Shown: one piece after another, positions 20,381 to 43,233 of the stretch | How positions within the stretch are numbered: position 1 is the stretch's first letter | Layout: every line of letters starts with the position of its first letter | IMG/VR virus record: IMGVR_UViG_3300020178_000825 | Span: 62,001 to 126,000 of that record | Strand: one strand, 5' to 3' | DNA length: 64,000 bases | Source: a virus | Position numbers and translations under genes: made by a program | The notes under the pieces: model-generated | What the model was told of the DNA's origin: nothing | Database searches by the model: none | The model's input: the letters and a program-made list of their open reading frames with translations, nothing else

Positions 20381-23300
20381 CTATTCGTAAAATAACCCAA
20401 GAATCTGATTGAGAGGTGCGAATGTGCCCGTTAGTTTGAAAGTTTTCCCACCATACACAAATACGATTCCTTCGTTTGGAACAATTTTATTCTTTCCTCC
20501 GATAGAATTTAATCTTTCCAATTCTAATTTTAGTTTTTTTACTTTCTTAGGGTCACCTGATTTTCTTACATCTTTAATGGTTTGGTCTAATCTCTTTTTC
20601 ATATCTCTAACTGCACTATCAGGATTAACAGTTAGTGCTGAACTCATAAATGAAAGTACTTCTGCTCCTAAACCTAAGAAGATATCTTCAAATGGTCTGA
20701 TGTTATCTTTAGCCATTTTAGCGTGGTCATTCTTATCAATTCCCTTTGCCCATTCTAATGTTTTTTCATCAGTAATATTCTTATTATCTAATCTGAATGA
20801 TTTATCATAGAATGCCCATCTCTTTACTAATCCCATTAGAGTTTTGTTATCTAACTTAGATGGTGATTTCTTATTCACAAAATCCATCCAAAATGCTTGA
20901 TGATAATCAGCGATTCCATCGTTATCTTTTAACTTAAATTTAGATTGTAGTTTTGAGATTTGTCCATTATACTTTCCTTTGAGTGAAGAAAGGTTTTTGG
21001 ATTTAGGTAATTGAACTACTGGTGGGCCTTGGATTGTGTAAGCGGATTGAACATCTGCATTGATTTGTTTAATCATACCTGCCAACATTCTCGCTGCATC
21101 TTGGTTCTCACCAATTGCGATACCATCCTCATTGTATTCCATTGTTCCGTGGAATACTAATAGTGCTTGTCCGTAAGGTATTACATTAACAGAAGTTGGA
21201 TAGATTACCTCCAAATTCATAAAACATGCTCCTCCTTTGAAAATCTTATCTCTCTGCTTTTCACTCAACTTAGATATTGCCTTCGTTAAATCTTTCATTG
21301 CGAAGTTATACGCCTTTTCCAATTCTCCTCTACCAGCAAACTTCATCGCTACACCATTGATATCTAATGCTCCAGCTCCTTTGTTTTTCAAATGTCCTTT
21401 ATTTCTCGCTGCAACTAATCTCCCATCTCTCCAACTAACTGCTAATGCTTGACCATCGGTCTTTTCTCTAGTGAGTTCTAAATTACCCTCTAAAGCTCTA
21501 TTTACGATATCTTTTAATTGTCCAAAAGTTAAATTGATTTCGGTATCGAATGGGTGATTCATATGTCCATAAGCACCTCCTTCCAAAATCAATGATTCAG
21601 TAATACCACCACCTAATGCGAATGGTTCATTATACTGAAGTTTTTCTTTATCAAATTTCTTTCTTAATTTTTTTAATTTCTTTTCGTGGTCATCTAACCA
21701 TTTTTGGTCTGGATAACCCATTGCCAATCCTTCTTTGATAATTCTATCTTTTACCAATAAGTGAACTAACTCAGCGCCAATATAATCAGGACTTTCTCCC
21801 CTATGCCACTTTCCGTGGTCTTTCATGTATTTATCTGATAAGAATTCAATCTTATCTTCATAATCCATTTTATTGATTTTTGCTCTATTTTTATGTGCCC
21901 ATTTTTTGAAATCCATATAGAAGAAATCATTTACACCTTCGAATTTATATTCTGGGTCTGGTGTTTTAAAATCATCTTTTCTCATTACGGTCTTAGCGAT
22001 TACTTTATTCGCTTGTTTCATAAATGGAATGTTGATTTTACTTCTATTATCCTTTGCTACAATTTGTCCGTACAATTGTAAGAAGTTTAAGAAATCTTTT
22101 TTCTTCTTTCCTAATCTTTTAAAGAATCCAATTAGTTCTGCAGGTGATATTGGTTTTTTATTTCTTGGGTCAGTTAATCTATCAAAGAAATGCTTATCGG
22201 TTAAAACTACATCAACTGGATTAAGCTGTTTATCTGCATATTGGTCAATCTTTTGTAAATCAGCCATTGGGATTTCATCCAATTGAACTTGTACACCTTC
22301 TTTTAAGATTCTAAAGTTTACAACTTTTCTACCATTGATTGTTGGCATCCCATGTTCATCTTTACCAATAGTTTTAACAACTGTCTTTTTATTTTTAAAT
22401 CTACCCGTTAAGATTGTATCACCCACATTTACTGGAAGTTTGATATCTTCTTTGAGTGTGTTACTAACTGGTTTCTTTTCTTGTGATAAATCTTTAGTTG
22501 ATTCTTTTCTATCAACCTCCAAATCAATGTAATCAATTAAAGAATATCCAACTAAACCAGCGGTTCGAGTTACATGCTTCCACCATTTATCATATGCAAT
22601 TGAACCATAGTAATCCTTTTGGTTAGTTGCAGTTGTTTTACCAGCTACACCAGCTGGAAATGGAGTTACTGCTTTTACAGGCCCATCAGGATAAATTGGA
22701 TGTGGGTCAATATCAGTAAGTTCCGCACTCATAATCTGAGATAAAACAGTGTATCCAATTTGTTCTGCTCTTTTTTGGGAAACTCTATCGAATATTGCAT
22801 ACGATGGAAATAAAAAGTTTGGACCATCATCAACTTCTTGTGAACCTAAAACTTTAGATGCCTCTTTGATTAAATCACTACCTTCAGCTATTAACCAATT
22901 TTCTACTATTTCTTTTGAAATACTAAATTCTTCATTTAGTGTGTTAGTTATGAAATCAAATATCTTTTTATCAAATTTTGGATATGCTCTTTTTACAAAA
23001 AAGTTTTTCTTATCTTCTTCTGAACCTGATGATAATCCGTTACGAACTTCAGTTCCACTTACACCCCCACCACCTTCGGGTGCGATGTAAACATATCCTC
23101 TATCTTCGTATCCTTCGAAATCGATACCATCTTTATAAGGAGTAAAAAACTTACCACCTAATCTACTTGCATCCTTTTTACCTACAACAGTAATAAATGC
23201 AGTTGTATCTTTATCAAACTTCGTTAATACCTCAGTTGGTACATAGGGATTTTTAACTTGAACAATTTTGTTTTTTGGAATCCCAAACATTTTGGTAATA

Positions 23301-23527
23301 ATCATTACCTTTTCTTTGAAGTTGAATGGGGATTTATTATTATCGGTTTTGTTGGATGTACCGATATACACATTGTTTTTTCCAAACTTTTTTACTAAGT
23401 GGGAATAGGTTGCGTAATGACCTTTATGAAAAGGTTGAAAGCGGCCAGCGTAAACTACAACGATGTTGTCTACACTGTCCGCTTCTCCTAATATACTCTC
23501 TACTAAAAATTGAGATAGTTCGTTCAT
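20381..23527 (-). CDS. Multidomain nucleotidyltransferase: NMNAT-like domain fused to ligase-like KxDG domain
   Basis: 1048 aa. The N-terminal ~190 residues are an HxGH-type nucleotidyltransferase: YAGRFQPFHKGHYATY (26-41) and SGTEVRNGL (157-165), as in NMNAT/cytidylyltransferase enzymes. The middle includes a segment (about 440-510, KHFFDRLTDPRNKKPISPAE) resembling a conserved phage domain of unknown role. From about residue 640 there is a covalent-nucleotidyltransferase (RNA/DNA ligase) layout: motif I EKTDGQ with Lys689, Asp691 and Gly692, MNLEVIYP as a possible motif III, and near the end NEGIVFVYGG (Glu1019) and KTFKLTG as candidate motifs IV and V. The predicted activities are NMP/NAD transfer and lysine adenylylation; substrates are unknown. 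It has its own late-type motif and lies between terminase and sugar genes. Confidence 0.83.
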   Translation of the reverse strand: MNELSQFLVESILGEADSVDNIVVVYAGRFQPFHKGHYATYSHLVKKFGKNNVYIGTSNKTDNNKSPFNFKEKVMIITKMFGIPKNKIVQVKNPYVPTEVLTKFDKDTTAFITVVGKKDASRLGGKFFTPYKDGIDFEGYEDRGYVYIAPEGGGGVSGTEVRNGLSSGSEEDKKNFFVKRAYPKFDKKIFDFITNTLNEEFSISKEIVENWLIAEGSDLIKEASKVLGSQEVDDGPNFLFPSYAIFDRVSQKRAEQIGYTVLSQIMSAELTDIDPHPIYPDGPVKAVTPFPAGVAGKTTATNQKDYYGSIAYDKWWKHVTRTAGLVGYSLIDYIDLEVDRKESTKDLSQEKKPVSNTLKEDIKLPVNVGDTILTGRFKNKKTVVKTIGKDEHGMPTINGRKVVNFRILKEGVQVQLDEIPMADLQKIDQYADKQLNPVDVVLTDKHFFDRLTDPRNKKPISPAELIGFFKRLGKKKKDFLNFLQLYGQIVAKDNRSKINIPFMKQANKVIAKTVMRKDDFKTPDPEYKFEGVNDFFYMDFKKWAHKNRAKINKMDYEDKIEFLSDKYMKDHGKWHRGESPDYIGAELVHLLVKDRIIKEGLAMGYPDQKWLDDHEKKLKKLRKKFDKEKLQYNEPFALGGGITESLILEGGAYGHMNHPFDTEINLTFGQLKDIVNRALEGNLELTREKTDGQALAVSWRDGRLVAARNKGHLKNKGAGALDINGVAMKFAGRGELEKAYNFAMKDLTKAISKLSEKQRDKIFKGGACFMNLEVIYPTSVNVIPYGQALLVFHGTMEYNEDGIAIGENQDAARMLAGMIKQINADVQSAYTIQGPPVVQLPKSKNLSSLKGKYNGQISKLQSKFKLKDNDGIADYHQAFWMDFVNKKSPSKLDNKTLMGLVKRWAFYDKSFRLDNKNITDEKTLEWAKGIDKNDHAKMAKDNIRPFEDIFLGLGAEVLSFMSSALTVNPDSAVRDMKKRLDQTIKDVRKSGDPKKVKKLKLELERLNSIGGKNKIVPNEGIVFVYGGKTFKLTGTFAPLNQILGLFYE

Positions 23528-23991: not shown

Positions 23992-24744
23992 TTATAAATT
24001 TTCGTAATCTATTGTTGTTACACCTCGTTTTTGTACAACTTGTGCTGAACAACGATTTCCAAATTGTATTGATTTTGGAATATCTTCGGAATCTAAGAAC
24101 TCTTTCACAAATCCTGCTACAAAAGTATCACCTGCTCCTGAGATATCCATAATCTCTACTTGTTCAGTTGGATATGATGTACCTTTGTACATACACCCAT
24201 CTTTATCTAATGTAATTATTAACTTTTCTAAAATCCAATCGTTTTCTTCAATAAATTCTTTATTATTTTCAAATTCTGAACGATTTAATTTTATGAATCG
24301 CAAATCTTTACACCATTCACCCAACTTTTTCTTTGTATCACAAATTACATTTGGGTGCTTGAATCCGATATATGCAATATCTTCTTCGGTTAGGAATCCT
24401 TTGTTGTAATCGGAAACTACAACCATTGGATATTCCCAAAAATCTAACTTAGGTAATCTATCACCTATATTATCAATATTTAATTCCTCATCAATTCTTA
24501 GAAGTAAGGTATTCGATGGTTCGTGAATGTGCCTTGTCTTTGTAATTGGAGATTGTTGATGTTCAAAATCTACATCAACCCCCAATGCCATTAAATTACC
24601 CATTACATTCATTCCCATCCCACCATTGTAAACTTCTCTTTTCGGAATAAATACAGGAGCAGGTCCTTCGGGTGAAAGTCTTGGTGTATCTCCATAAATA
24701 AAGATATCATCACATTGTTCTCCTATTAATAATATTCTACCCAT
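23992..24744 (-). CDS. PfkB-family sugar kinase, HldE N-domain type (heptose-7-phosphate kinase-like)
   Basis: 250 aa ribokinase-fold kinase. Features typical of HldE/RfaE kinase domains are LSPEGPAPVFIP (23-34), YNGGMGMNVMGNLMALG (39-55), LLLRIDEE (80-87), VVSDYNKGFLT (109-119) and the anion-hole/catalytic DISGAGDTFVAGF (Asp206 as predicted base). It is shorter than typical HldE kinase domains, about 310 aa. It overlaps the nucleotidyltransferase gene by 8 nt, so the two resemble a split HldE. The likely reaction is phosphorylation of a heptose 7-phosphate at C1 for ADP-heptose synthesis; another sugar phosphate cannot be excluded, but the neighbouring heptosyltransferase favours heptose. 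Confidence 0.85.
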   Translation of the reverse strand: MGRILLIGEQCDDIFIYGDTPRLSPEGPAPVFIPKREVYNGGMGMNVMGNLMALGVDVDFEHQQSPITKTRHIHEPSNTLLLRIDEELNIDNIGDRLPKLDFWEYPMVVVSDYNKGFLTEEDIAYIGFKHPNVICDTKKKLGEWCKDLRFIKLNRSEFENNKEFIEENDWILEKLIITLDKDGCMYKGTSYPTEQVEIMDISGAGDTFVAGFVKEFLDSEDIPKSIQFGNRCSAQVVQKRGVTTIDYENL

Positions 24745-25126
24745 TACTTAATATCTTTGTAGTACTAAAATTTTCCATTCGATTAAAGTAAACAATTGAT
24801 TTTGCATATTGTTCACCAACTATTGGTTTATTTTTATAATCAGAACCAATTACAAATACATCAGGTTCATATGATTTTATCATTTCTTCCAATGCATGAG
24901 ATGAATCAAATATTATTACTTTTTTTACTCCTTTAATTCTTTCTAAGTTATACTTTCTCTCTTCTTGCGTATGAAAAGGTCTATCTTCTCCTTTTAACTC
25001 TTTTACTCGTTTATCAGAATCAATACCAATTACTAATAAATCACCAAAAGTAGATGCAAATTCAATCATTTTAAAATGAGCATGATGTAAAACATCAAAA
25101 CATCCATTTATCCAAACTTTTTTCAT
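24737..25126 (-). CDS. Sugar-phosphate nucleotidyltransferase, HldE C-domain type
   Basis: 129 aa cytidylyltransferase-like enzyme. It has NGCFDVLHHAHFKMI (8-22), where the usual HxGH is HHAH (Gly replaced by Ala), then LLVIGIDSDKRVKELKG and DRPFHTQEER, PDVFVIGSDYKNKP, and a short C-terminal TTKILSNG in place of the usual STT(K/R)I end. The family adds AMP (HldE C-domain) or CMP (TagD-like) to a phosphorylated sugar or polyol. Given the adjoining kinase and heptosyltransferase, ADP-heptose formation is the best reading. It overlaps both neighbours by a few bases. Confidence 0.84.
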   Translation of the reverse strand: MKKVWINGCFDVLHHAHFKMIEFASTFGDLLVIGIDSDKRVKELKGEDRPFHTQEERKYNLERIKGVKKVIIFDSSHALEEMIKSYEPDVFVIGSDYKNKPIVGEQYAKSIVYFNRMENFSTTKILSNG

Positions 25127-26265
25127 AAAAACTTTTCCAATTCTTTGATTACCATTTCTGATGTAATGGATTTAGTACACTCAAACTGTCTTTTAGTTTC
25201 TTTGTGGTCAGGACACCAATTCCAATCACCAGCATCTAATCTCAATCTATTGAAACAACCACTACATTTTCCTTCAGGTGTTCCAATTCTAATACAATCT
25301 TCCATTTCTGCCCAATCGTATGAGAATCCACTAATCAATACAGTCTTAGTTCCCAATGCCCAACTTAACCAACTCAATCCACTACCAATACCAATAAAGG
25401 CTTTAGATTTTCTCATCTCATCCATAACTGATTCTAATGTTCCTTCTGGGTGTTTAATGATTCCGTTAGGATGCTCGTTACCCATATATCCATCGTTTTC
25501 TCTGGATAATAATTTTACTTTGTATCCTTTATCATTTAACCAATCTACAACATCTTGCCAACCATTTGGATTATTCCAATACTTTGTTTGTGCGGTTCCA
25601 TGAATTGCAATAGTGATTAGTTTATTATCTTTTTTAATTTGTTTATCCACTAATTTTGGTTTAACTTCCTTAAAATCCATACCCAATATATCAGTTGCCA
25701 TTTTCTGCATTGGTTCATTTAAAAAATTAGATGGATGTTTTAACATTTTGTATGTATTATCTTCATTATAAAATAACCCTAATGAATACATAGCATATAA
25801 ATTATGTACATTTGTACCCGGTTCAACAAATTCTATGTTTGGGTATTGCTTTTCAAACATATGATTGTGAAATGTGGAAGTTATCATTTTACAATTATGT
25901 AGTTTACCAAACTCCTCAACATATGGAACCCAAGCCAAAGTATCACCCAATGCCTTCGAATCCAATGCTATATAAACTCTTTTATTTTCAGCATTATATT
26001 GATAATCTTCTACCAAAATATCACCTTCCCAAATTTTAACATTCCAATTAACAAAAAATTCAATACTACATTTTGCCCACTGCCCATTTGAGATATCTGT
26101 TTGGAAATGAATATAATTTGTTTTTGGGTCTATAAATTGTACTTTATAGTTTTTTGGTTGGGAACCCTTTACTTCGATATAAGCACCTCTAACAAAATTA
26201 AAAATAAAAGTATTTCTAACTTCTCTAATATTGTCCTCTAATTTTATTAAATTATCGTAAATCAT
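25123..26265 (-). CDS. BAHT-type (Aah/TibC) protein O-heptosyltransferase
   Basis: 380 aa from the ATG at 26265, which overlaps the upstream stop as TAATG; an in-frame TTG three codons earlier is less likely. The pattern fits the autotransporter strand-loop-strand O-heptosyltransferase family: a beta-rich N-domain, ALDSKALGDTLAWVPYVEEF, STFHNHMFEKQYPNIEFVEP, TNVHNLYAMYSLGLFYN, ATDILGMDFKEVKP, a GT9-like GIGSGLSWLSWALGTKTVLI with ISGFS, and four Cys near the C-terminus (about 334, 337, 351 and 363; CSGC, NWCPDHK, FECTK) matching the metal-binding finger of TibC. Known members move heptose from ADP-heptose to Ser residues of autotransporters. Here the acceptor is unknown; the giant fibre nearby is a candidate. 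Confidence 0.86.
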   Translation of the reverse strand: MIYDNLIKLEDNIREVRNTFIFNFVRGAYIEVKGSQPKNYKVQFIDPKTNYIHFQTDISNGQWAKCSIEFFVNWNVKIWEGDILVEDYQYNAENKRVYIALDSKALGDTLAWVPYVEEFGKLHNCKMITSTFHNHMFEKQYPNIEFVEPGTNVHNLYAMYSLGLFYNEDNTYKMLKHPSNFLNEPMQKMATDILGMDFKEVKPKLVDKQIKKDNKLITIAIHGTAQTKYWNNPNGWQDVVDWLNDKGYKVKLLSRENDGYMGNEHPNGIIKHPEGTLESVMDEMRKSKAFIGIGSGLSWLSWALGTKTVLISGFSYDWAEMEDCIRIGTPEGKCSGCFNRLRLDAGDWNWCPDHKETKRQFECTKSITSEMVIKELEKFL

Positions 26266-28448
26266 TATAACCAAGTTTTATTTTTTAAATCTAATAAAGA
26301 GTATCCTTCTGCTTGCTTTGAATATACTTTATTGGTTGTATATCTTTTTTCTGGATGTTCGTAGAATACGTGGTTATACCACAAATCAGCAACATCCCAC
26401 TTACAATCTTTGATTCTATCTAACCACCATTGTTTTTTACGATTTGGTATTAAATAAGCATGTGCTAAATCTTGATTATGTGCCGTTTTGGAAAACAACT
26501 CATCTATTTTTTCTTTACTTCTAGATGGATTATCAGCGAAAGATATGTAGGTAACATCATCTCTTTCTGATATGAAACAAGCTTTATGTACAATATCTAC
26601 AAACTCCTCTAAACCAGTATAAATAAATGCATCAGCTTCGAAGATAAGAGTATAATCAAAGTTATCATTATCCATTGTTTCCAAAGCACCTCTATGAGCC
26701 ATATAGCACCCATAATGCCCCCCAGTTATCCAACCCAAACCAGCACCAGGATATAACTCACCCGGTTTGTTATCTTTACTTAGATGTTCAGGCCTTCTAC
26801 AAAATTCCTTTGGTGCAAAATCAGTATAAGGTTTATTTACAATTGGTTCATAAACCATTCCATACCTTTCCAATTGTTTAAGTGAAGCTTGTGATACCAT
26901 TTCTCTTAAATCATTTGGCCTAGTCATTAGGTGTTTGATTTGAATACGAGGTTTTCTTCTAGCCCATTGAAATTTGTTTATTTGTTCAAACTGATAATAA
27001 AACGATTCTCTCACAGCATCAACTACTCCCATAAATTCCTTAACATAATCATCACCAGCAATAATTCCACCTGGCTTAACTTTTTTATACCAATATTTTA
27101 TATCTTTAATCACATCATCATATGTGTGGCCCGCATCCAAAAAAACAAAATCTAATGAGTTATTTTGAAATTGGGATGACGCATTTTCGGATGTATCTTT
27201 TATAATTTCAAAGTTGTTATAGTTGTTTGATAAAATTGTGTTATCTATAAATTCATAAAATACATCTCCCCCAAAACTATTTACAATACTCTGATGTAAA
27301 GTTTCATCAATTGTACCCTTAAACGTATCAACTGTTGTAAAATTAAAGTTCTTTTTTGAATATTTTATTTTGTTGGCCATATGATTGGTAGATTTACCTA
27401 ACCAACTACCAACCTCAACTATATTAGAATTATCGGGCAAATCCCTAATCACCTTATCGTATAAATCAGAATATGAAAACCAACCAGGTACTTCATTAAA
27501 ATCAGGTTGTAACTTTTCTAATATAATTTGTTTAGTATTATTTAAATCATCATCGATATAAGTAACCAGTGGATTATCATCATATGTATCCAAATAAGTA
27601 TGTAGTTTTCTGAATATAGATGGTAATCCATATGATAATGCTTCTTTAACCGATAAAGGATTTAATTCTAATTTAGAACTAAAATAAAACATATCCGATG
27701 CTTTGTAAAATTTATCTACATCATTTCGTTCTCCCCAAATAATACAATTATCGGGTTTAACATCCATTAAAGGTTTCCAATAATTTTCGAAGTTCATAGC
27801 TTGGTTTCCAACAAAGTGAAATTTAATTTTGTACTTTTCCATTTGTCTAGCTACCCCAAATATTTCACCTTGATTTTTACCCTCAGTAAATAAACCAATC
27901 ATCACTACATGCTTCCAATCGGATTCAAATCCTAATTCTTTTTTTGCAGATTTTTTATCATACTTAAAATCTTCAATTGGGTAATCCCAAATATCAGTTT
28001 CAATACCTAAATGTTCAAATTTTCTTCTACTCCACTCAGATACCAAAACATATCTATCTGGATGATATCTTATTTCGTCTGGATTTGTTAGTGAACCATG
28101 TGTGGTTACTACAATATTATAATTTCTTTTTTCATTATCAAAAATAATATCTAATAAAGATGTATCTACAAAATGATGTGGTATTTCGTGAAAATGAATT
28201 ATATCAGGATTTTCGGAATCTATAATCTCTAATAACTCTTTTTTATTTTCATATAAAGAGTATAGTTTCACTAAATCATTTATTTGATTTTTTTGAACTA
28301 CAAATACACCACCACTATGGTCATTATATTCAACAACAACTATTTCAAAATCATTTACAAATGTTTGGATTTGTTTGAGAAGATATTGTGGCATGCCCCC
28401 AGTAGAAAGATGGGGTGCAATGTATAACAGTTTTTTCTTTTTAGGCAT
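26265..28448 (-). CDS. Three-domain glycosyltransferase / methyltransferase / glycosyltransferase
   Basis: 727 aa. Domain 1 (about 1-320) is a GT4-type glycosyltransferase: LYIAPHLSTGGMPQYLL and the nucleotide-sugar region SSKLELNPLSVKEALSYGLP. Domain 2 (about 330-500) is a class I SAM methyltransferase: IVEVGSWLGKSTNHMA, TTVDTFKGTI, LDFVFLDAGHTYDDV, KPGGIIAGDDY. Domain 3 (about 530-690) resembles GT25-like or other small transferases: LGWITGGHYGCYMAHRGALE and YTLIFEADAFIYTG with an EADA acidic motif, then ERDDVTYISFADN. It is the first gene of the sugar cassette, driven by a Bacteroidota-type promoter. Predicted to extend and methylate a glycan; substrates unknown. Confidence 0.85.
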   Translation of the reverse strand: MPKKKKLLYIAPHLSTGGMPQYLLKQIQTFVNDFEIVVVEYNDHSGGVFVVQKNQINDLVKLYSLYENKKELLEIIDSENPDIIHFHEIPHHFVDTSLLDIIFDNEKRNYNIVVTTHGSLTNPDEIRYHPDRYVLVSEWSRRKFEHLGIETDIWDYPIEDFKYDKKSAKKELGFESDWKHVVMIGLFTEGKNQGEIFGVARQMEKYKIKFHFVGNQAMNFENYWKPLMDVKPDNCIIWGERNDVDKFYKASDMFYFSSKLELNPLSVKEALSYGLPSIFRKLHTYLDTYDDNPLVTYIDDDLNNTKQIILEKLQPDFNEVPGWFSYSDLYDKVIRDLPDNSNIVEVGSWLGKSTNHMANKIKYSKKNFNFTTVDTFKGTIDETLHQSIVNSFGGDVFYEFIDNTILSNNYNNFEIIKDTSENASSQFQNNSLDFVFLDAGHTYDDVIKDIKYWYKKVKPGGIIAGDDYVKEFMGVVDAVRESFYYQFEQINKFQWARRKPRIQIKHLMTRPNDLREMVSQASLKQLERYGMVYEPIVNKPYTDFAPKEFCRRPEHLSKDNKPGELYPGAGLGWITGGHYGCYMAHRGALETMDNDNFDYTLIFEADAFIYTGLEEFVDIVHKACFISERDDVTYISFADNPSRSKEKIDELFSKTAHNQDLAHAYLIPNRKKQWWLDRIKDCKWDVADLWYNHVFYEHPEKRYTTNKVYSKQAEGYSLLDLKNKTWL

Positions 28449-28463
28449 AAACGAAACTTTTTA

Positions 28464-28516
28464 GTGTATAGATACACTTCAATACAAATATACTAAAAAA
28501 TATTTGAATTACCAAA
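28464..28516 (-). promoter_or_regulatory. Host-type (Bacteroidota) promoter of the sugar cassette
   Basis: The minus strand reads TTTG (28513-28516), 20 bp, TATATTTG (28485-28492), the Bacteroidota -33/-7 consensus. A small inverted repeat GTGTAT/ATACAC (28464-28477) lies between it and the ATG at 28448 and may act as an operator or leader hairpin. Confidence 0.75.
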
Positions 28517-28842: not shown

Positions 28843-29232
28843 TTATTCCGGTTGAGTTGGTAAAGTATATGGAGGAGTTTGAGAAGTTACATCTCTTAAA
28901 TATTGTCGATATTGTAACCAATCATCTAATTTAGAACCAGTAATAGGAGAATGAGGAAGTACAACCCAATCCGATTTATCCAAAAGTTCATTTCTTTCTC
29001 TTCTAATATTTTGTAAATCTCTTTCGTTTTGTTCTTCGGTAGTTAATGGTACAACTGTGTGAATACCATCGATTACTCTACATCTAGTTTGCCTTGCCTC
29101 AATCCATTGTTCTTTTGTTAACTCTATGTTGGGAGTGTCCATAGAACCTGTATCGGGATGTATATCCGTTGGGAAAAATGCTTTATAATCCCCATTTTCA
29201 TCATAATGTCCAAAGTATCGTATATCACTCAT
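28843..29232 (-). CDS. Tail-fibre assembly chaperone-like protein
   Basis: 129 aa. The N-terminal part (MSDIRYFGHYDENGDYKAFF) and LTKEQWIEARQ are typical of small proteins encoded after phage fibres. The C-terminal RRERNELLDKSDWVVLPHSP and WLQYRQYLRDV match the conserved RxxRdxLLxxsDW...W..YRQxLRD pattern of phage tail assembly/fibre assembly chaperones. It starts 12 nt after the giant fibre gene, which is the likely client. Confidence 0.82.
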   Translation of the reverse strand: MSDIRYFGHYDENGDYKAFFPTDIHPDTGSMDTPNIELTKEQWIEARQTRCRVIDGIHTVVPLTTEEQNERDLQNIRRERNELLDKSDWVVLPHSPITGSKLDDWLQYRQYLRDVTSQTPPYTLPTQPE

Positions 29233-29243
29233 AATTTATTTTT

Positions 29244-32200
29244 TTAATGTCCGATTGCAATCCAAAATCCATAATTACCATCTAAAATTAATTCTACACC
29301 ATTTCTATCGTAGTTGTAAACATGATTATACCCGTTACTACCACCAGAATTTCTATTTGTAGAACAAACTACCGAATGAATAACATTTGGGAATTGGGTA
29401 GGGAATGCAACATATCTTGGTGATGATGTATCATAAATATGTCCCCATTGTAAGATAACACCACCAGGCAATTTTACATAACTATCATAGTTATCATTAA
29501 CTGAGTTAGTATCTGTGGTAGTTGCACCGGGACCATCATCTAATGATACAGCTAAGTTTTCAATATCTACACCATTGAGGTTATGGCCGTAAATATTTTT
29601 CCACATATCCGAAGCACTACCAAAATCAAAATCATCACCATTTTCTGGCATAAGATTACCTTTTACAGTCATTGCAGTCTGGCCAATTCCAGTTCCCGTA
29701 GCTTCGAAAATAGATTCTCCACCTTTTGCTTCTAAAATTGTTCCACCCCCAGTAGCTTGTCTAGGTATTTTAACAAATGTATCTGGGTCTGATACAACCT
29801 GAATACCACCTGCTTTAATTTCAACAAAGTTAGATGCTAACGCAAAACTAACATTAGTATCTAATAATAAATCAGGTTGATATCCACCCGCTCTACCCAA
29901 ATATCCAGCTGGTATTGGACCTGCTGCTCTTAGAGCATCATACCTAACAGTATGTGTTTTGTAACTATTTAAACTGTTACCAGATGAATCTACATTAATA
30001 GCTCTACCTGAAGCAGCTGCTAAACGTATAGAATATCTGAATGCTGCATTAGTTGCCGCTCGAGATATATTAATTGTTTTAGTTTGATTGCTTATTGCTG
30101 ATTGAGAACCAACATATCCACTTACAGTAGTAGCAGATGTATAAGTCCAAGTTGATGGGTTGTGTGATAAAATATCATTTGATATGTAATTATGAACACC
30201 CGGTACTTCAAATGTATATACCCACTCATCAGTTTCAATCTCTTCAACTGAATCAACTGTTTGTAGTTTTATAGTATCACCATCTACTATGTAAACTTTA
30301 GTTTCATTTGGTATAATATCAACTGCGGTTACTTCTTCATTATTATCTAACCAAAACCCATGAGTATCGGAAACTCTCACTTCCTTATCACCAACAACTA
30401 CTTTATAAACTTTATCTACTTTTCGTTTTTTTACTTTTTCTAATTTAAATGAATCAAATTTATTTATTTCATCTACACCATCTATTTTATCGTTCCAACT
30501 CCAAACTTTTAAAGGTTCACCACTAAATATCTGGTCTGCTCTCATTTTTCTTCCAGATGCTAATGTAATTTCAGTATCACCAGTTACTGAACTTATACCT
30601 GGGAAAGATGTTCCCCCACCACCACCGTCATTAACATCACCAACGTAATAATTACCAGCAGTATAATCACTTCTTGAATTAACGGCTGCTATTAATGTTC
30701 TACCCAAAACACTATTAGAGGTATCGGTATCTACACATTCTAAATAAAGATATGCATAGGCATATTTCGGAAAAGAACTTCCTCCATGTAGTTGAGAATT
30801 ATAAGTTGGATTATAATTTGGATAAGATGTAGTATGTGATACCGAACTACCTTCTGGTTTCATCAAATACATTTCTGGTACATTTATCGTTACTTCTAAA
30901 TCACCAGCAGTTACACCAAACAATCCATCATCTGTTCCCTCATCATCAGAATCACTTAATCCACCAGATATGTAACTACCAAATTGAACAAGTGTTGTTG
31001 TAGCACTGGATGCTTGTGATATTATACCGCTTGAATTTCCAGTACCAGCGTATCTAACATCACTGGGGTCTGGTGCTGCTGTTATCCATTCTACAGTAGT
31101 TGTAGTTCCACCCGTACCAGTTAAGGTATCCGATGGAGAAATAATTACTTTCTTAGCAGCTGCACTATCAAATAATTGTATTTCAGGAATATTAGGTTCA
31201 AATACGATTTCAGAGTTATCATCTCTTAATGCCTGAGTATCTTCATCAATTACCCAAGAACCAATTCTACCAGAATTAGCATTGATAATACCCTGAATGT
31301 TTGCATCGGAAGCTGATAATGCTCCCTGAGCATTTACACTAAATGATGCACTTACTCCAGTAGCTGGTACGCTGATTGTACCTCCAACAATATCCGAACC
31401 TTCAATTGCCCCACCAATAATATCCGAACTCATTTGTACTACACTACCATCATATCTAAAGAAACTACCATCAGGTCCTCTCATAGAAATTCTTGGAACA
31501 GTTGAACCAGATGGGAATCCGAAAAATAATCCTTGCGCATCATATGATGCAGTAAGCTGTCCCATAGATAAGAATGGGAGAGTTTGTCCATCCAATGAAC
31601 CAGATGTTGATATTCTTAATGCTTCTCCAGTTATACTTCTTGGTTCAACTCTACCAGCAGTAAGTGAACCAGCATTAATTGTATTTACACCTTCTCCACC
31701 ACCACCTGCATACATTCTATCAATTAAATATAAAGTTACGCTTCCTGCGTTATGTAGTTCTATATCACTACCATAGTTATTATCTTCCGTTGAACGTAAA
31801 GTTGTTGAGTTTAGATATTGAACAATTGGAATATACAAATCTACAATATTACCAATACCTAAAACAGGTACATCATATGCATGAATGTACGCACTCATTC
31901 TTGGGTCAGCTCCACTATCAAGGCTACCATGAAACCACTCATCTGGTATATAAGGTGAACCGATAGCATCTTCCCAAGATGAATCGGATGTTATAATTTG
32001 ATTTGTACCAGCTTGCCAAACTAAGTTAGAGGCATTGGCACCACCAGCATCTAAATTAAATGAACCAGTCCACCAAAAATCAATTTCATATGATGAATTA
32101 AGTGCGTATAAGTTTGGAGTTACTTTAAAGTGTGCATTATCTGAACCAAAGAAAGAACCAGATGCTGAACCTGTTACTAAGTTTGTTGTGGTTACAAGAC

Positions 32201-35200
32201 CAAATGCTGTCATAACTGCAGAACCACTACCAAATGGGTCTGCGGTTCTCGTCATTTGTTTATATGCATTATCACCAACATCAGAAATTGATGTATTTCT
32301 TTCAATAATTGCTCTACTACCTCCACCTTGATTTGTTATAGCATCCGTAAAATCAATATAAGATAAAGATTGAGTTACAACACTTTCACCAAAGTATTGA
32401 TTACCCACATCATATGTTGATGGGAAGAATACACCAGTATTATCAATTACCAATCCACCAAATATACCAGCCGATGCTGATACGATACCAGAAACTTTTA
32501 AATTACCCGATGATTGTTGGAATGATAATGAACCACCTTCTTCTCCTCCTAAATAAAAGTTACCATTATTATCTAAAAATGCGTTCCAATCAGTTCCATC
32601 GTGATAACCTAAATTATCAGAACCTAAATATAGACCTGGAACTGATGGAGTTGCTGGTAATTCTCCCAATTCGAAGAAATCAGGACTACTACCTGGTCCG
32701 AATTGATATTCCGATGGGTTTATAAATCCACCTGTTGCGTTGTTGATAGCATCAACGCTTGAAGTGGTTGCGGCAGAACCTCCTTTGATTTGTATCGAAC
32801 CTGCTATTTCTAAATCATAACCATCCCATCTTAGATATCTATCACCAGTATCATTTTCTATTGAGAATAATCCAGATGTTCCTTGTGTTCCATTAGGTCC
32901 ACCATCTTCAGTTACACCCAAAAATATACCTTGCTGTCCATATCCTTGAGTTCCTTGTCCGATGGCTATATAAGGTTCACTATCACCACCATAAATTGCT
33001 ATTTGTGGATTAACACTATAATCAGTTGATGGTTTACCAACATTTATTGTGTTTTCTACAAATGATTCTTCAAAAATTGCAATCTTAGCAGCTACGAAGA
33101 AATCTTCTTGTCCTAAGTATTCCCACCCAGTTGTTGCATCTTCATAACCTTCTTCATATGGTGGGCCAGGTGGTAATGTTGGTTGTGCGGTATATGGTGC
33201 ACTTCCATCAGTATATGCTGGTTTGTTTATAAGTGCTTCAGTTGTTGCCCAATAGTGTGTATCACCACTAATCTCTTGAACAACCGCATCTCTTCTTGTT
33301 CCAGTAAACAGATATGGAACATTCGCATTCCACTCACCTCTTACAACAACACCAGGACCAGTTGCTCCTTCGAATGTTACTGCAAATGATTGTGATAAGA
33401 AATAAGTTGCTCTACCATTTTCAATATCAACTTTGTAAACAATTGTTCCAGTTGGATTATCAAATGGTGAAGTCCAACCACCATTTGGTATTTCAGGTAA
33501 AGTTGCAGGGTTTCCAGCGAATATTCCCGTTTGATTTAAATAAGGACTTTTAGATTCTATCGATGCAGAATATTGTCCTAAGTTACCAATAAATACACCC
33601 TGCTCATCATAAACATAGTCGGATGGTGAATATGAAGTTACGTGAGTTAGCGGTGTTACACCTTTTACGGCTCTGATTACAGCACCACTACCAGTAAAGT
33701 GAGTTGTACCATCTACATCAGATGTAAGAGTTACAGATGGGTTATCCAATTGTACATTATAATTTGATGCTCCATCTTGTACACCAGTAATAGTAATTGC
33801 ATCAGTAGCTACTACATTAGCCGTTGAACCACCATCTCTAATTCGTACCTCCCAGCTTACAGTTTCACCAGCTTCAGTTGCATCACCAGAACCAACAGTT
33901 ACTGTATTTGTTTGTGAATATGGTTGCCACACATAACTATCTCTAAAGAATCCGTAATAAACAGAACCTGTTGTATTGTAAGCTTCAGCAGTTAATGTAA
34001 TTGCACCTAATGGAGATGTTACCTGTCCATCACCATCAAAGTGAACTACTTCTGATGTTGCTGTTAACTCAACACTTCTAGCGTTTGGAGGTGTAATACT
34101 TTTAACAAAATTTTGAGTTCTTTCAAAAACAGAAGATGAATATTCATGACCAGGTCCTAATGAAAATGGAAATACATTAATATTATATGTAACACTAGCA
34201 GATACATATGGATATTCAAATTCACTAAATTCAACACTAGCAGATATTCCACCTTCCAACGAAACTAAATTTGAAGTTATGTTTGTTGTATTAATAGATT
34301 CTAAAGTAAATGTACCAGGTGCACCACTACTGGTGTTTATTAAATTATCAGAACCCTCTTTTACCGTAATTGTTGTTGTAGCGTTGGAATAATCACCTAC
34401 AAATTCTACTTCATTAGCAATTAAAGTTACAGATTGAGGAACTATGTTTAGTTCTATTGGAGGAGGTCCATCTAATATTTTAGTAAAATTTTGAGTAAAA
34501 CTTTGTGTGTAAACAGATGATGTAAAGTAAGGTCTAATCTCTAATGGATATGTAATACTACCACTAAGTTGTGTAAAGTTTGATGATTCACTTACAATCA
34601 ATGATGCCGTATAATCAGTACCAAATGATGAAGTTAAGTGTAGTAATCCCACTTCAATGTTTTGTGAACTGATAGATTCGGATGCTATTGTAAACGTACC
34701 GGGTTCTGCACTACCCGTAAATATTAATCGTCTTGAACCCTGTCTTAAACTAATATCAGTTATAGATTGTTTAAAATCATTGACATTACCTCTACTATCC
34801 GATTTTAGATTTACAGTCTGAGGGTTAACTTCAAACAATACAGTTTCATCACCCGGCTTACCTTCAGGTACAATGGTGAAAATATGGTCAACTTGAACCG
34901 ATGCAGAAGTTACTGGTTCTGTGTAAGTAAAGTTTACCAATAGTTGTTTGCTTTGTGAAGCAGGTAACCCAATATATGAACCCAACTCACCATGTGGTGA
35001 ATAGAATCCATTCTCATCATATGCCGTTACCTCAATACTTTCATCTTTAGAATGAGATACAAAATACATCCAGTATTCAGGAACAAAATCTTTATTGATT
35101 GACATCGATGGGAATATCTCAATCGATGCTGATACTGGATTTGCTTTAGTACCCCTCTTATAAAAAGAACCCGTTACACTACTAAATTGCGGAGTAAATT

Positions 35201-37652
35201 GAGTTTGTGTTCTTGGATTAATAGTAAATACATCTGCATCAAATGTTACAAACCCACTATCTAAACCATCTTGTAAATCGGTAAGAATAATTGATGTAAG
35301 AATTGATTGAGAAGTTTCACCATCCATTAAGAATACGGTCAATTCATTATCAATAGAATCTCTATTAAATCTTGCGTTATAATCAATTTCACCACTACCA
35401 GTTAAACCAGCGTTTAATCCTTTAATAAATTTAGTAGATGATGCCTCTGAAAGAAGTATATAAGAACCACTTTCTTCCAATGTTACTTCATCTATTGATG
35501 ATGAAAGGACTCTAAGTTTTGCATCGGAAAATCCAGTTTGTGGTAAATTATCTTTAAGAATAATTTCATTAATACCATCAATACGAATTGCTTGAATTTC
35601 TAATTCTTTATCATCTTTGTTTTTGATAATTGTACCTCTGTAAGGCCTAATCTCAAAGTTTACACCACCCTTACCATCTTGAACTCTAGTGATTACGAAT
35701 GAATCGGTTACACCCTCAACCTCACCAGTATATTCAATATATTGAACTGTAATATCATCTCTTGAACCAGTATAATCAGATACATTTAATTTTACAATAT
35801 CTTTATCTCTGTCCGTTAATAGACCAGGAAATACCCCACCATTATATTGTGATGATGATAATAAATTTCCAAACTCATCATATGCACCAGATGTAAATGT
35901 TACCGAACCAGTTATTACTCTTTTTTCAACATCAATAAAAATGTTTAATGGAGGTAATGGATTTGCAGGTGCCGATGCTGAATCAAATGCAAAATATAAT
36001 TGATTTGGTGTAAGAATTAATTCTTTTGTAAATAAGTTTAAGTTACCACCTGTGAATGTTTTTGTTTCTTCAACTAATACAGGTATGTAATTATTATTTA
36101 TATCATAAAATTCAAAACGAAAATCAAATGTTTCTTCAGCTAATGTTTTTGGTACACTTTGTATAAATGTAATTTCATCGGGAGAAAAAGAAGTTTCTTC
36201 TGCTGCTCTTAATGAAATATTATTAATTAACCAATCATTACCTTTTACTTCAAAATATAATTGTGAACCAGATATATTATCTGCAATTATATTTTCATTT
36301 ACTAAAGTTTTTTGTAATAATTCATTCGAACTACCTATATTTGTAATTGTTTGTGCTACAGTTGTATTTCCAAACGAACCACTTAGATAAACTTTTAAAT
36401 AATCATCGGCTGAGATGTTTGTTCTTTTTCTAACATTAAACGATAAATTATATTCAACACCATTGGTTATACCCAATGATTGAGATGTATAAAAATATTG
36501 TGGAGTAGATGCCCCATTATCAAGTTCAACAGAATTGTATAAAAAATCTTGATTAAATGTAGTTACTAAATCATTTGATGATGTTAACCAATAATTATTA
36601 ATGTAGTTTTGACTTAGATTACCATAGAAAGTTTCCGTTGATTCAACACTTTCTAAATCTCTCAACAATTCGTTTGATTCTAATTGTATTTCTTGTACGA
36701 ACTCATAATCAGTTAATTGGGATACCGATTTTCTAAACACCTTAACCCTAGCGGCATCACCAACAAATGTTTTCATATTGGTGATGTTAATTTTAGCAAA
36801 TGAACCAGTTAAAGCGGTTGCTAAATCAACTGCCCCCTCAACATATGGAAATGATACCGAATAATTTTGAGATGAAAATGGTTTAACTAAATCCGATTCA
36901 GAATATGGTGGAGATACTAATACTTCATCTTTGTTGACAATATCAGTAATGGTTGGTGAATAGTTTAGTCCACTAAATTCTATTTGTTGACCAACCGCAG
37001 AACCGGTCCAATATGTATCATCTGTGATTTTTAATCTATATGATGTTGGTAAAGAAAAATTAGATAGTTGAGTATTTTCGGTTGGGATTAAAGGTAAACC
37101 ATCTACTTGCCCAGTTTGAGTAATTGTTTGTGGGGTTTTGTTAAATATTGGTTTAACTATCTCATCAATACCCACCTTAGGTCTACGATAAAATCTTACC
37201 CTATCTTCGTTTGATAGATTTTTATTAATCTGAAAAGTTCTTTCCCATTTAACATTATAAGCACCTCGCCAATCTGATGGAATTTGTCTTTTTACACCAT
37301 TATCATCATACTCCTTTAGTTCACCCAAAATAGTAATCTTACCCAATCCGATTGGAGTATCTTCATAGATATAAACAGCTATTAACTTTGATATACCTTC
37401 ATAGTATTCTGGGATTCCATTACCTGGTTCATAATATATTGGTTCTCCATTAACATCTAAAATCTCAATTTTTATTTCAGTAGATTCTTTTAGATATTCT
37501 GAACCCTCTATTAGGAATCCATTTTTACCACCAGTAAATGTATCTTTAAATTCGGTAATTCTAAAATAATCCGAATTGGGATTTTCATCTACTATTAAAG
37601 TTTGAAACGATGATAAATTTTGTTCAGGTGAATACTTTTTAATTCTGGCCAT
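29244..37652 (-). CDS. Giant tail fibre / receptor-binding protein with embedded Hint domain
   Basis: 2802 aa. The N-terminal ~200 residues look like a virion-attachment part. A long series of beta-rich repeats rich in Ser/Thr/Gly follows, many of the form 'F-x-I-x-P-x-x-x-x-L' joined to SSFTQNF-like linkers, consistent with Ig-like modules (about 500-1400). Residues about 1430-2000 carry collagen-like or trimerisation-type phrases such as VTEDGGPNGTQGTSG and IAGSIQIKG. Residues 2355-2498 are an intein-like Hint domain (separate entry). The C-terminus (LPGGVILQWGHIY, FPTQFPNVIHSV, YGFWIAIGH) matches the gp53-like fibre tip domain. One late-type motif and the assembly chaperone downstream support a fibre role. 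The high Ser/Thr content would suit O-glycosylation by the adjacent cassette; this is inference. Confidence 0.88.
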   Translation of the reverse strand: MARIKKYSPEQNLSSFQTLIVDENPNSDYFRITEFKDTFTGGKNGFLIEGSEYLKESTEIKIEILDVNGEPIYYEPGNGIPEYYEGISKLIAVYIYEDTPIGLGKITILGELKEYDDNGVKRQIPSDWRGAYNVKWERTFQINKNLSNEDRVRFYRRPKVGIDEIVKPIFNKTPQTITQTGQVDGLPLIPTENTQLSNFSLPTSYRLKITDDTYWTGSAVGQQIEFSGLNYSPTITDIVNKDEVLVSPPYSESDLVKPFSSQNYSVSFPYVEGAVDLATALTGSFAKINITNMKTFVGDAARVKVFRKSVSQLTDYEFVQEIQLESNELLRDLESVESTETFYGNLSQNYINNYWLTSSNDLVTTFNQDFLYNSVELDNGASTPQYFYTSQSLGITNGVEYNLSFNVRKRTNISADDYLKVYLSGSFGNTTVAQTITNIGSSNELLQKTLVNENIIADNISGSQLYFEVKGNDWLINNISLRAAEETSFSPDEITFIQSVPKTLAEETFDFRFEFYDINNNYIPVLVEETKTFTGGNLNLFTKELILTPNQLYFAFDSASAPANPLPPLNIFIDVEKRVITGSVTFTSGAYDEFGNLLSSSQYNGGVFPGLLTDRDKDIVKLNVSDYTGSRDDITVQYIEYTGEVEGVTDSFVITRVQDGKGGVNFEIRPYRGTIIKNKDDKELEIQAIRIDGINEIILKDNLPQTGFSDAKLRVLSSSIDEVTLEESGSYILLSEASSTKFIKGLNAGLTGSGEIDYNARFNRDSIDNELTVFLMDGETSQSILTSIILTDLQDGLDSGFVTFDADVFTINPRTQTQFTPQFSSVTGSFYKRGTKANPVSASIEIFPSMSINKDFVPEYWMYFVSHSKDESIEVTAYDENGFYSPHGELGSYIGLPASQSKQLLVNFTYTEPVTSASVQVDHIFTIVPEGKPGDETVLFEVNPQTVNLKSDSRGNVNDFKQSITDISLRQGSRRLIFTGSAEPGTFTIASESISSQNIEVGLLHLTSSFGTDYTASLIVSESSNFTQLSGSITYPLEIRPYFTSSVYTQSFTQNFTKILDGPPPIELNIVPQSVTLIANEVEFVGDYSNATTTITVKEGSDNLINTSSGAPGTFTLESINTTNITSNLVSLEGGISASVEFSEFEYPYVSASVTYNINVFPFSLGPGHEYSSSVFERTQNFVKSITPPNARSVELTATSEVVHFDGDGQVTSPLGAITLTAEAYNTTGSVYYGFFRDSYVWQPYSQTNTVTVGSGDATEAGETVSWEVRIRDGGSTANVVATDAITITGVQDGASNYNVQLDNPSVTLTSDVDGTTHFTGSGAVIRAVKGVTPLTHVTSYSPSDYVYDEQGVFIGNLGQYSASIESKSPYLNQTGIFAGNPATLPEIPNGGWTSPFDNPTGTIVYKVDIENGRATYFLSQSFAVTFEGATGPGVVVRGEWNANVPYLFTGTRRDAVVQEISGDTHYWATTEALINKPAYTDGSAPYTAQPTLPPGPPYEEGYEDATTGWEYLGQEDFFVAAKIAIFEESFVENTINVGKPSTDYSVNPQIAIYGGDSEPYIAIGQGTQGYGQQGIFLGVTEDGGPNGTQGTSGLFSIENDTGDRYLRWDGYDLEIAGSIQIKGGSAATTSSVDAINNATGGFINPSEYQFGPGSSPDFFELGELPATPSVPGLYLGSDNLGYHDGTDWNAFLDNNGNFYLGGEEGGSLSFQQSSGNLKVSGIVSASAGIFGGLVIDNTGVFFPSTYDVGNQYFGESVVTQSLSYIDFTDAITNQGGGSRAIIERNTSISDVGDNAYKQMTRTADPFGSGSAVMTAFGLVTTTNLVTGSASGSFFGSDNAHFKVTPNLYALNSSYEIDFWWTGSFNLDAGGANASNLVWQAGTNQIITSDSSWEDAIGSPYIPDEWFHGSLDSGADPRMSAYIHAYDVPVLGIGNIVDLYIPIVQYLNSTTLRSTEDNNYGSDIELHNAGSVTLYLIDRMYAGGGGEGVNTINAGSLTAGRVEPRSITGEALRISTSGSLDGQTLPFLSMGQLTASYDAQGLFFGFPSGSTVPRISMRGPDGSFFRYDGSVVQMSSDIIGGAIEGSDIVGGTISVPATGVSASFSVNAQGALSASDANIQGIINANSGRIGSWVIDEDTQALRDDNSEIVFEPNIPEIQLFDSAAAKKVIISPSDTLTGTGGTTTTVEWITAAPDPSDVRYAGTGNSSGIISQASSATTTLVQFGSYISGGLSDSDDEGTDDGLFGVTAGDLEVTINVPEMYLMKPEGSSVSHTTSYPNYNPTYNSQLHGGSSFPKYAYAYLYLECVDTDTSNSVLGRTLIAAVNSRSDYTAGNYYVGDVNDGGGGGTSFPGISSVTGDTEITLASGRKMRADQIFSGEPLKVWSWNDKIDGVDEINKFDSFKLEKVKKRKVDKVYKVVVGDKEVRVSDTHGFWLDNNEEVTAVDIIPNETKVYIVDGDTIKLQTVDSVEEIETDEWVYTFEVPGVHNYISNDILSHNPSTWTYTSATTVSGYVGSQSAISNQTKTINISRAATNAAFRYSIRLAAASGRAINVDSSGNSLNSYKTHTVRYDALRAAGPIPAGYLGRAGGYQPDLLLDTNVSFALASNFVEIKAGGIQVVSDPDTFVKIPRQATGGGTILEAKGGESIFEATGTGIGQTAMTVKGNLMPENGDDFDFGSASDMWKNIYGHNLNGVDIENLAVSLDDGPGATTTDTNSVNDNYDSYVKLPGGVILQWGHIYDTSSPRYVAFPTQFPNVIHSVVCSTNRNSGGSNGYNHVYNYDRNGVELILDGNYGFWIAIGH
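30159..30590 (-). other. Intein-like Hint domain inside the giant fibre (144 aa)
   Basis: It starts at Ser2355 after a GGGGGTSFPGIS linker: SVTGDTEITLASGRKMRADQ is a block-A-like start with Ser in position 1. VRVSDTHGFWL contains the TxxH-type block B (D-T-H-G), and VPGVHNYISNDILSHN supplies block F/G ending in His-Asn (2497-2498). The residue after Asn is Pro, not Cys, Ser or Thr, so normal splicing should be blocked. Bare mini-intein size, with no homing endonuclease. It may cleave the chain or be a relict. Confidence 0.82.
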
Positions 37653-38138: not shown

Positions 38139-38305
38139 ATAAAAAATATGCAATGTTACAAATTGATGCCGAAGTTCATCAATTATTAAAGTCCTTTTGT
38201 AAGGATAAAGGATATAAAATGAATGGGTTGGTAGAATCTCTCATAAAAGAAAAGGTTTCACCAAATGCGAAACCACTTCCTACTAATGTTCTTAAAACTA
38301 AATAA
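38135..38305 (+). CDS. Small ribbon-helix-helix-like protein
   Basis: 56 aa from the ATG at 38135, which overlaps the upstream stop as ATGA; an ATG at 38123 would add four residues and is less likely. Layout is one strand (YAMLQIDAEVHQLL) then two helices (KSFCKDKGYKMNGLVESLIKEKV), as in Arc/MetJ-type DNA-binding proteins. It could be a small regulator. It converges on the UDP-sugar dehydrogenase gene, overlapping by 8 nt at the 3' ends. Confidence 0.65.
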   Translation: MNKKYAMLQIDAEVHQLLKSFCKDKGYKMNGLVESLIKEKVSPNAKPLPTNVLKTK

Positions 38306-43201: not shown

Positions 43202-43233
43202 CAAATATACGAAAAATTTTTCAATTATCCAAA
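43202..43233 (-). promoter_or_regulatory. Host-type (Bacteroidota) promoter of the primase operon
   Basis: Reads TTTG (43230-43233), 20 bp, TATATTTG (43202-43209) in the transcribed direction. The -33 box abuts the stop codon of the upstream gene. Confidence 0.78.

Follow-up and report, generated by a model that had tools for sequence, protein, structure and literature searches.

A phage operon for predicted protein O-heptosylation and its association with Gly-[Thr/Ser]-Ser repeat proteins

What would a phage do with a protein heptosyltransferase, and on which protein would the enzyme act? The question is raised by an operon in a 64,000-nucleotide stretch of viral DNA (IMG/VR record IMGVR_UViG_3300020178_000825, positions 62,001 to 126,000; this whole stretch is called the window). 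The source record, of 126,056 bases, is that of a T4-like phage, as indicated by matches to terminase, portal and major head protein. The operon runs on the minus strand from 28448 to 23992 and contains four genes, in the order GT4/methyltransferase/GT25-like protein, transferase, nucleotidyltransferase (NT) and kinase. Consecutive genes overlap by 1, 4 and 8 nt, and all four open reading frames (ORFs) lie where the original prediction, made from the sequence alone, had placed them. Related viral contigs carry a syntenic cassette, which excludes a chance arrangement; the check suggested with the original prediction, a look for the cassette near fibres in relatives, was thus positive for the cassette, though not for all four genes in each of them. 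In one 252-kb record (G001) the matched genes of the cassette locus (L024) show 100% identity to those of the window. The answer we favour, and consider rather probable, is that the operon encodes a protein O-heptosylation system acting on Gly-[Thr/Ser]-Ser repeats of the phage's own giant collagen-like tail fibres.

The transferase and its clade

The 380-aa transferase, whose most likely start is the ATG at 26265 (a TTG at 26274 had been listed as the start), scored 272 bits against the BAHT family model TIGR04414, for which the cut-off is 200. Its sequence matched that of TibC (PDB 4RAP) with an E value of 2.5e-48 and 34% identity across 327 aligned residues, and all four iron-finger cysteines were aligned; the original assignment to a BAHT-type transferase with a four-Cys finger was therefore correct. 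A structure model built from 35 aligned sequences (predicted local distance difference test, pLDDT, 89.8) superposed on TibC with a template modelling (TM) score of 0.84 over 371 columns (E 7.9e-35) and reproduced the TibC fold, including the N-terminal beta-barrel. The runners-up, a Veillonella GT9 protein (E 5.1e-10) and then WaaC, were far behind.

Sequence and fold comparison also establish the catalytic residues. Reduction of 81 phage loci at 90% identity left 42 phage representatives, namely 41 viral contigs and phage Mel-JY01. The equivalents of TibC D110 (catalytic), T226, K230 and W305 were identical in 42 of 42, as were the iron-finger cysteines C339, C342, C358 and C370 (TibC numbering). 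According to PMC4358343, from which these residue roles are taken, T226, K230 and W305 contact the beta-phosphate and the heptose. The TIGR04414 family is common in viral contigs, where it was found in 134 stretches; in many of them the BAHT domain lies within a longer protein that often contains GT4, and in one locus (L039) the transferase and a GT4 domain form a direct fusion.

A 79-row tree put TibC and 19 further rows on one side of a split and the phage copies, 14 near bacterial rows and three others on the other (support 100/99). A quicker tree of 123 rows placed 42 phage and 22 bacterial rows on the phage side (support 1.0), and phage and bacterial rows were intermixed inside this phage-side clade. 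No autotransporter appeared among the BAHT neighbours sampled for a hidden Markov model (HMM) search.

Gly-[Thr/Ser]-Ser repeat proteins beside the transferase

All four giant ORFs tested near transferases in distinct contigs were collagen-like by Pfam, with Gly-[Ser/Thr]-[Ser/Asn] repeats. When flanks of up to 10 kb per side were inspected for the 42 non-redundant phage loci, a Gly-X-Y ORF was found in 23; in two of these (L015 and L034) the repeats were not of the Ser/Thr type, so that Ser/Thr-type repeat ORFs were present at 21 of 42 loci. Outside the window's clade the count was 21 of 30. The Microcystis phage Mel-JY01 likewise carries both a BAHT domain and a repeat ORF.

The association was also examined in reverse, by scanning viral contigs for repeat patterns independently of the transferase; the loci so obtained are a sample, not a census, and the locus counts that follow hold among the matches listed. 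A first scan with a loose pattern found the transferase at 1 of 13 Ser/Thr-type loci and at 0 of 107 others. A stricter Ser/Thr pattern was then used, the run threshold was raised from 10 to 15 triplets and both scans were pooled, all of these choices being post hoc. At least 231 loci resulted, 104 of them with Ser/Thr-type runs, 90 with other Gly-X-Y runs and 37 with short runs or none. The transferase was present at 9 of the 104 Ser/Thr-type loci, at none of the 90 and at none of the 37 (9/104 vs 0/127, p 6e-4). Whole records were then compared for 74 of the 104 Ser/Thr-type loci and 47 of the 127 others, the first batch being hand-picked and at least 30 kb long. The second batch consisted of L312, L321, L219, L328 and L345, overlooked in the first, together with 33 more Ser/Thr-type loci and 11 more others. 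The counts of records with TIGR04414 were, for the Ser/Thr type, 15 of 39 (14 over the cut-off) and then 9 of 35, in total 24 of 74 (23 over the cut-off), and, for the other records, 1 of 33 and then 0 of 14, in total 1 of 47 (Fisher p 2e-5). Widening the sample thus lowered the share (24/74 after 15/39) yet gave a smaller p. Among records of at least 60 kb the figures were 18 of 30 and 1 of 13. The sole positive of the 47 others, L206, also matches the Ser/Thr DNA pattern, as do the negatives L310, L339, L219, L328 and L345, none of the six having been classed as Ser/Thr-type. In its strict form this DNA pattern occurred in 14 of 24 BAHT records and in none of 12 that had been selected without regard to BAHT; serine codons of the AGY type and Asn escape it, and several pattern-negative records are of the Ser/Thr type by translation. 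Six viral contigs from a terminase-chosen set, most others of which were too short, served as pattern controls.

The association established by these comparisons extends to bacteria. A Gly-Thr-Ser or Gly-Ser-Ser repeat ORF lies within 3 kb of the transferase in 15 of 80 bacterial BAHT loci, and these are 15 of the 22 bacterial rows inside the phage-side clade against 0 of the 58 outside it. A clade formed by L107-L112 and L121 (support 0.997) has a repeat neighbour in seven of seven, and inspection of whole flanks adds L166, which is inside the phage-side clade. A plain split of the rows gave 8 of 14 (L093-L106) against 7 of 66 (L107-L172); a cut at L112 had been chosen after the data were seen and was replaced by the tree-clade count. 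Since the rows within each group are related, all these bacterial counts overstate independence. The repeat proteins of L107-L112, L121, L100 and L105 are small and stand beside BAHT in Gammaproteobacteria, including Methylococcaceae, and several bacterial ones have a signal-peptide- or lipoprotein-like start. For the six repeat proteins tested, NCBIfam held no dedicated family and returned only matches below the cut-off, to collagen-like adhesins and unrelated models.

That the linked bacterial proteins look like exported cell proteins could suggest that the operon remodels the host lipopolysaccharide (LPS) or a host surface protein, for instance in superinfection exclusion; homologues of the kinase and NT in marine cyanophages have indeed been described as LPS genes with unknown function (PMC3037559). 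We regard this explanation as very improbable, because the transferase resembles TibC and matches WaaC only distantly, because in phages it associates with fibre-like genes, and because the operon shows no lipid- or membrane-linked step.

The window itself contains no ORF with repeats of the Ser/Thr type. One is encoded in the same record, by a gene for a 4590-aa fibre-like protein at contig positions 35,544-49,313 (minus strand). This protein has 361 Gly-X-Y triplets in which X is Thr in 202 and Ser in 131 (92% Ser/Thr), and of the 1342 residues in its repeat span 686 are Ser/Thr. In PHROG it best matches tail-fibre families, which are also matched by an adjoining 2987-aa ORF. Record G001 holds both the cassette and the repeat pattern.

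The proposed pathway and the evidence to be weighed

From these data we infer a sugar, an acceptor, an order of steps and a benefit. The GmhA of the host would make D,D-heptose-7-phosphate, which the phage kinase, the host GmhB and the phage NT would convert to ADP-heptose. The transferase would set heptose on Ser/Thr of the repeats before or during fibre trimerization, in this phage mainly on the 4590-aa protein, and the 727-aa protein encoded by the first gene probably extends the glycan with a further sugar or methylates it. In the 727-aa protein, GT4 and Methyltransf_24 domains scored above the Pfam cut-offs; the C-terminal GT25-like match fell short (20.5 bits, cut-off 24). A dense coat of glycans would keep the fibre hydrated, stiff and shielded. 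Stabilization by glycans is plausible because Gly-Thr-Ser chains poor in proline should form weak triple helices, and the nearest analogy is BclA, a collagen-like protein that is glycosylated (PMC8968730).

Several observations weigh against heptosylation of the repeat fibres, some of them concerning the acceptor and others the donor. As to the acceptor, the known BAHT acceptors (PMC4358343) are beta-helical autotransporters, not Gly-X-Y repeats. No repeat ORF of the Ser/Thr type was found in the flanks of the 12 window-clade representatives, and the transferase (contig positions 87,123-88,265) lies about 38 kb from the repeat protein of its own phage, while another fibre adjoins the operon. 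The tail-fibre matches of the 4590-aa protein in PHROG rest mainly on the repeats. Of the repeat-bearing records, 50 of 74 had no BAHT in the record sequence, including one of 270 kb (G154), and since both genes cluster in large phages their association may partly be one of shared ancestry.

The same chemistry might instead be directed at the adjacent fibre, a 2802-aa protein identified as a tail fibre by its Gp53-like C-terminus, and tune adsorption. Fibre and operon stand side by side in the window-clade relatives with enough upstream sequence, the repeat protein is not adjacent to the operon in this clade, and the fibre contains 19.2% Ser+Thr, as compared with 9-16% in five other window proteins. 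This alternative nevertheless appears unlikely. The enrichment is modest, and the label of Ser/Thr-rich given to this fibre originally has to be softened accordingly; the fibre has no Gly-[Thr/Ser]-Ser repeats; outside the window's clade the neighbour that recurs is a protein with such repeats, homologues of the 2802-aa fibre not being seen there; and the repeat association is found in bacteria too. The original prediction had named the adjacent fibre or a host surface protein as the acceptor; the association in phages and bacteria makes the Gly-[Thr/Ser]-Ser repeat fibres the likelier one.

As to the donor, all 42 phage representatives have V, L, I or A where TibC has Arg286. In TibC this residue contacts the adenine, is highly conserved and is essential for activity (PMC4358343), so that with its replacement the donor nucleotide or the sugar could differ, ADP-heptose being the predicted donor. 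Arg was found at this position in 65 of 67 rows comprising L107-L172 plus TibC, and in 2 of the 14 bacterial rows L093-L106. The phage transferases are for this reason filed, on their sequences, as a putative sister clade working like BAHT and not as TibC-type BAHT. Where TibC has Pro300, the phage transferases have G, S or A. Pro300 governs the stereoselectivity of TibC, and a Ser in its place lets Aah take both heptose isomers (PMC4358343).

The donor genes also depart from the reference enzymes. The 129-aa NT scored 103 bits against rfaE_dom_II (TIGR02199, cut-off 181.5) and the 250-aa kinase 101.8 bits against rfaE_dom_I (TIGR02198, cut-off 345). Each model was the top NCBIfam match, and the HldE-type homology proposed originally is thus upheld; both proteins are below the equivalog cut-offs and appear to be HldE-like only. 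Further, a kinase match was present in only 14 of 40 BAHT records; among the 12 window-clade representatives the NT was found in 10 and the kinase in seven, two (L015 and L022) having neither. Relatives without donor genes must obtain these activities from the host or from elsewhere. GmhA (PF13580) was not found in the 126-kb record or in 40 BAHT records, nor GmhB (TIGR01656) in the 126-kb record or in 36 records searched, G001 being included in both searches; that these two steps lie outside the window had been stated correctly.

The replaced Arg286 and the scores under the HldE cut-offs would both fit a protein glycosylation that uses another sugar or nucleotide donor, the kinase and NT making a different nucleoside diphosphate (NDP)-sugar. 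The NT moreover resembles glycerol-3-phosphate cytidylyltransferase (71 bits, PDB 1COZ), and among PDB sequences it is cytidylyltransferases that it matches best. We give this explanation a small chance of being right, since the top NCBIfam models are those of the two HldE domains, the best fold match of the kinase is HldA, and T226, K230 and W305 are kept in all phage representatives; besides, the bacterial transferases of L107-L112 and L121, which stand beside Gly-Thr-Ser repeat proteins, retain the arginine.

The kinase fold and the placement of the donor genes after the transferase count in favour of the proposed pathway. The kinase aligns to positions 9-64 and 98-311 of the 315 of rfaE_dom_I, about 33 positions between these segments being missing; the best folds matched by its structure model are HldA structures (E 5.6e-18; next 1.3e-12). 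It matches PHROG_8133 with 249 bits over the full length of the profile (4-239 of 246), and in the phage collection it has relatives in 31 records, every one of them with Synechococcus, Prochlorococcus, cyanophage or marine in its name. GAGD, which we take to be the PfkB kinase catalytic motif, is invariant in 12 of 12 aligned kinases. The NT matches CTP_transf_like, contains GCFDVLHHAH and STTKI, presumably nucleotidyltransferase motifs, and is 32% identical to its homologue in phage P-SSM2. In the window's clade the transferase is followed directly by the NT and then by the kinase. The L039 group, a separate BAHT lineage, has the order GT4-transferase fusion, cupin, NT and kinase; donor genes therefore follow the transferase in two separate lineages. 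An HldE-like pair is near the transferase in 3 of the 80 bacterial BAHT loci: in L146, L161 and L172 (Enhydrobacter and two Lachnospiraceae contigs), the kinase and NT, encoded on the other strand, lie no more than about 2.6 kb from BAHT.

Host, surroundings and known systems

The first gene of the operon is preceded, at a distance of 36 nt, by a promoter-like site, TTTG-N20-TAnnTTTG. We assume this to be the Bacteroidota promoter consensus, and it fits the host-type promoter of the original prediction in that it matches the likely host phylum. Near-identical copies of the site are present at 43202-43233 and 43473-43504; the three-copy pattern was written from the sites themselves, which makes its zero expectation in shuffled sequence circular. 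The plain consensus had nine matches in the window, compared with a shuffle mean of 4.03, and 1 of 100 shuffles reached nine. Of the 14 motif matches in 124 kb of the record, six were intergenic, though intergenic DNA makes up only 4-5% of the bases. All relatives scanned (L009, L013 and L016) had an equivalent site 17-33 nt before the homologous gene. A scan of the window with the sigma-70 consensus gave no match. Shine-Dalgarno sequences preceded 11 of 50 genes, with 4 at the control position, a frequency that leaves the host undecided. From the promoter-like sites, a Bacteroidota host appears likely. It is only likely because the closest terminases are those of Microcystis phage Mel-JY01 (56.3%) and of the Flavobacterium phages immuto (55.8%), which are equally close, and because the available parts of Mel-JY01 and the Flavobacterium phage showed no intergenic copy of the motif. 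A cyanobacterial host was set aside, psbA (PF00124) being found in 0 of 40 records and the promoter-like sites being of the Bacteroidota type.

Table 1. Operon genes and adjoining features, in window positions
Feature	Position	Strand	Basis
727-aa protein, GT4-like + Methyltransf_24 + C-terminal GT25-like	26265..28448	-	Pfam; kept upstream of transferase in relatives
380-aa phage-type BAHT/TIGR04414 protein O-heptosyltransferase (predicted), four-Cys iron finger	25123..26265	-	Profile, alignment, model
129-aa HldE C-domain-like nucleotidyltransferase, predicted heptose-1-P adenylyltransferase	24737..25126	-	TIGR02199, below cut-off
250-aa compact HldE N-domain-like PfkB kinase, predicted heptose-7-P kinase, PHROG_8133	23992..24744	-	Profile, fold
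2802-aa tail fibre with Hint/intein-like domain near aa 2361-2498; alternative acceptor	29244..37652	-	Pfam, neighbours
Tail-fibre assembly chaperone-like protein adjoining fibre	28843..29232	-	PF16778
Bacteroidota-type promoter-like site TTTG-N20-TAnnTTTG	28485..28516	-	Motif scan

In the window-clade relatives where the fibre adjoins the operon, the chaperone was not detected in all (Table 1). The fibre contains, at about aa 2355-2500, a Hint/intein-like domain (PF14890, 31 bits, below the cut-off) that begins with Ser-Val-Thr-Gly-Asp-Thr and ends with His-Asn before Pro; perhaps it cleaves rather than splices. The fibre of relative L005 has apparently two such domains in tandem. Across L005-L025 the domain seemed to track the kinase, being absent in the kinase-less L015 and L020-L022, a co-occurrence that may be due to chance since the loci are few and share ancestry.

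Three other minus-strand genes of the window deserve mention. A 1043-aa ORF at 39120-42251, to judge by its translation, resembles a fusion of an SbcD-type nuclease with an SbcC-type ATPase, as if T4 gp47 and gp46 were in one protein. Next to it, at 38298-39116, a 272-aa nucleotide-sugar dehydrogenase (TIGR03026, 196.5 bits, cut-off 189.8) is matched only up to profile position 297 of 413 and is thus a short form without the C-terminal part. At 20381-23527, a 1048-aa protein has an N-terminal nucleotidyltransferase domain and a middle that varies among relatives; it is kept near the terminase in Mel-JY01, and in the Flavobacterium immuto phage a gene annotated as NadR-like has a similar place.

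Protein heptosylation is familiar from work on bacterial adhesins (PMC4358343), and BAHT chemistry is already known. What is apparently new is the phage setting, the lack of Arg286 in the clade and the association with Gly-[Thr/Ser]-Ser repeats; no earlier report of them was found in titles and abstract openings of mostly non-subscription literature. A distinct BAHT clade is now placed in many uncultured phages, the predicted acceptor is a simple tripeptide repeat that can be synthesized, and a route to collagen-like fibres that are glycosylated and poor in proline is suggested. A tentative extension, about which we are more doubtful, is that a whole BAHT clade of large phages and some bacteria might be dedicated to Gly-[Thr/Ser]-Ser repeats, that the giant fibres might be hyper-heptosylated triple helices stabilized free of proline, and that the cyanophage 'LPS' kinase and NT might be donor modules for a similar glycosylation of virion proteins. 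The sugar genes of cyanophages would thereby gain a testable function; a 2010 comparison (PMC3037559) left open whether they are functional or 'stuffer DNA'.

The marine cyanophage 'LPS' cassette (P-SSM2, S-SM2) has a homologous NT and a PHROG_8133 kinase, and its cupin also occurs in the L039 group; no BAHT was found in those cyanophages, and the cassette of P-SSM2 also has a HAD-like protein and an epimerase. According to PMC3037559, the families T4-GC 304, 305, 307 and 308 co-occur in P-SSM2, S-SM2 and S-SSM7, their function being left open. In the P-SSM2 record these are the genes for the NT, the kinase, a cupin-like protein ('cysteine dioxygenase') and the epimerase; in P-SSM2 and S-CAM3, kinase, NT, cupin and epimerase stand beside tail fibres (the S-CAM3 NT by sequence only). 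The 'phosphoheptose isomerase' of P-SSM2 (L090, 7722-8066) and S-CAM3 (L089, 7710-8030) has a DIDGT motif near its start, presumably a HAD-type phosphatase motif. By this motif it resembles such a phosphatase more than a GmhA, and no homologue of the P-SSM2 protein was found in the window or the viral loci compared. To judge by the motif, it may be a GmhB-like phosphatase of the cyanophage cassette, and the neighbouring cupin may be an isomerase.

Mycobacteriophage virions likewise carry glycans on virion proteins (cited in PMC12619734); there they are at the C-termini of capsid and tail-tube proteins, and a link to BAHT or heptose is not described in the part of that paper available. With TibC and Aah, the phage transferases share the fold, the catalytic Asp, the phosphate and heptose contacts and the four-Cys iron finger. 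They differ in forming a separate clade, in the replaced Arg286, in being phage-encoded and often part of a longer GT4-containing protein, and in having, on the phage side of the tree, Gly-[Thr/Ser]-Ser repeat proteins as neighbours rather than beta-helical autotransporters. The phage kinase and NT are homologous to the two halves of HldE, and the kinase is closest in fold to HldA; in the phage they are two separate short ORFs, the kinase is shortened, and both score below the equivalog cut-offs. The glycosylation of Bacillus BclA and of mimivirus collagen uses other enzymes. These two are also glycosylated Gly-X-Y proteins (PMC8968730); in the phage repeats X and Y are mainly Ser/Thr rather than Pro, and the phage transferase is predicted to be BAHT-like.

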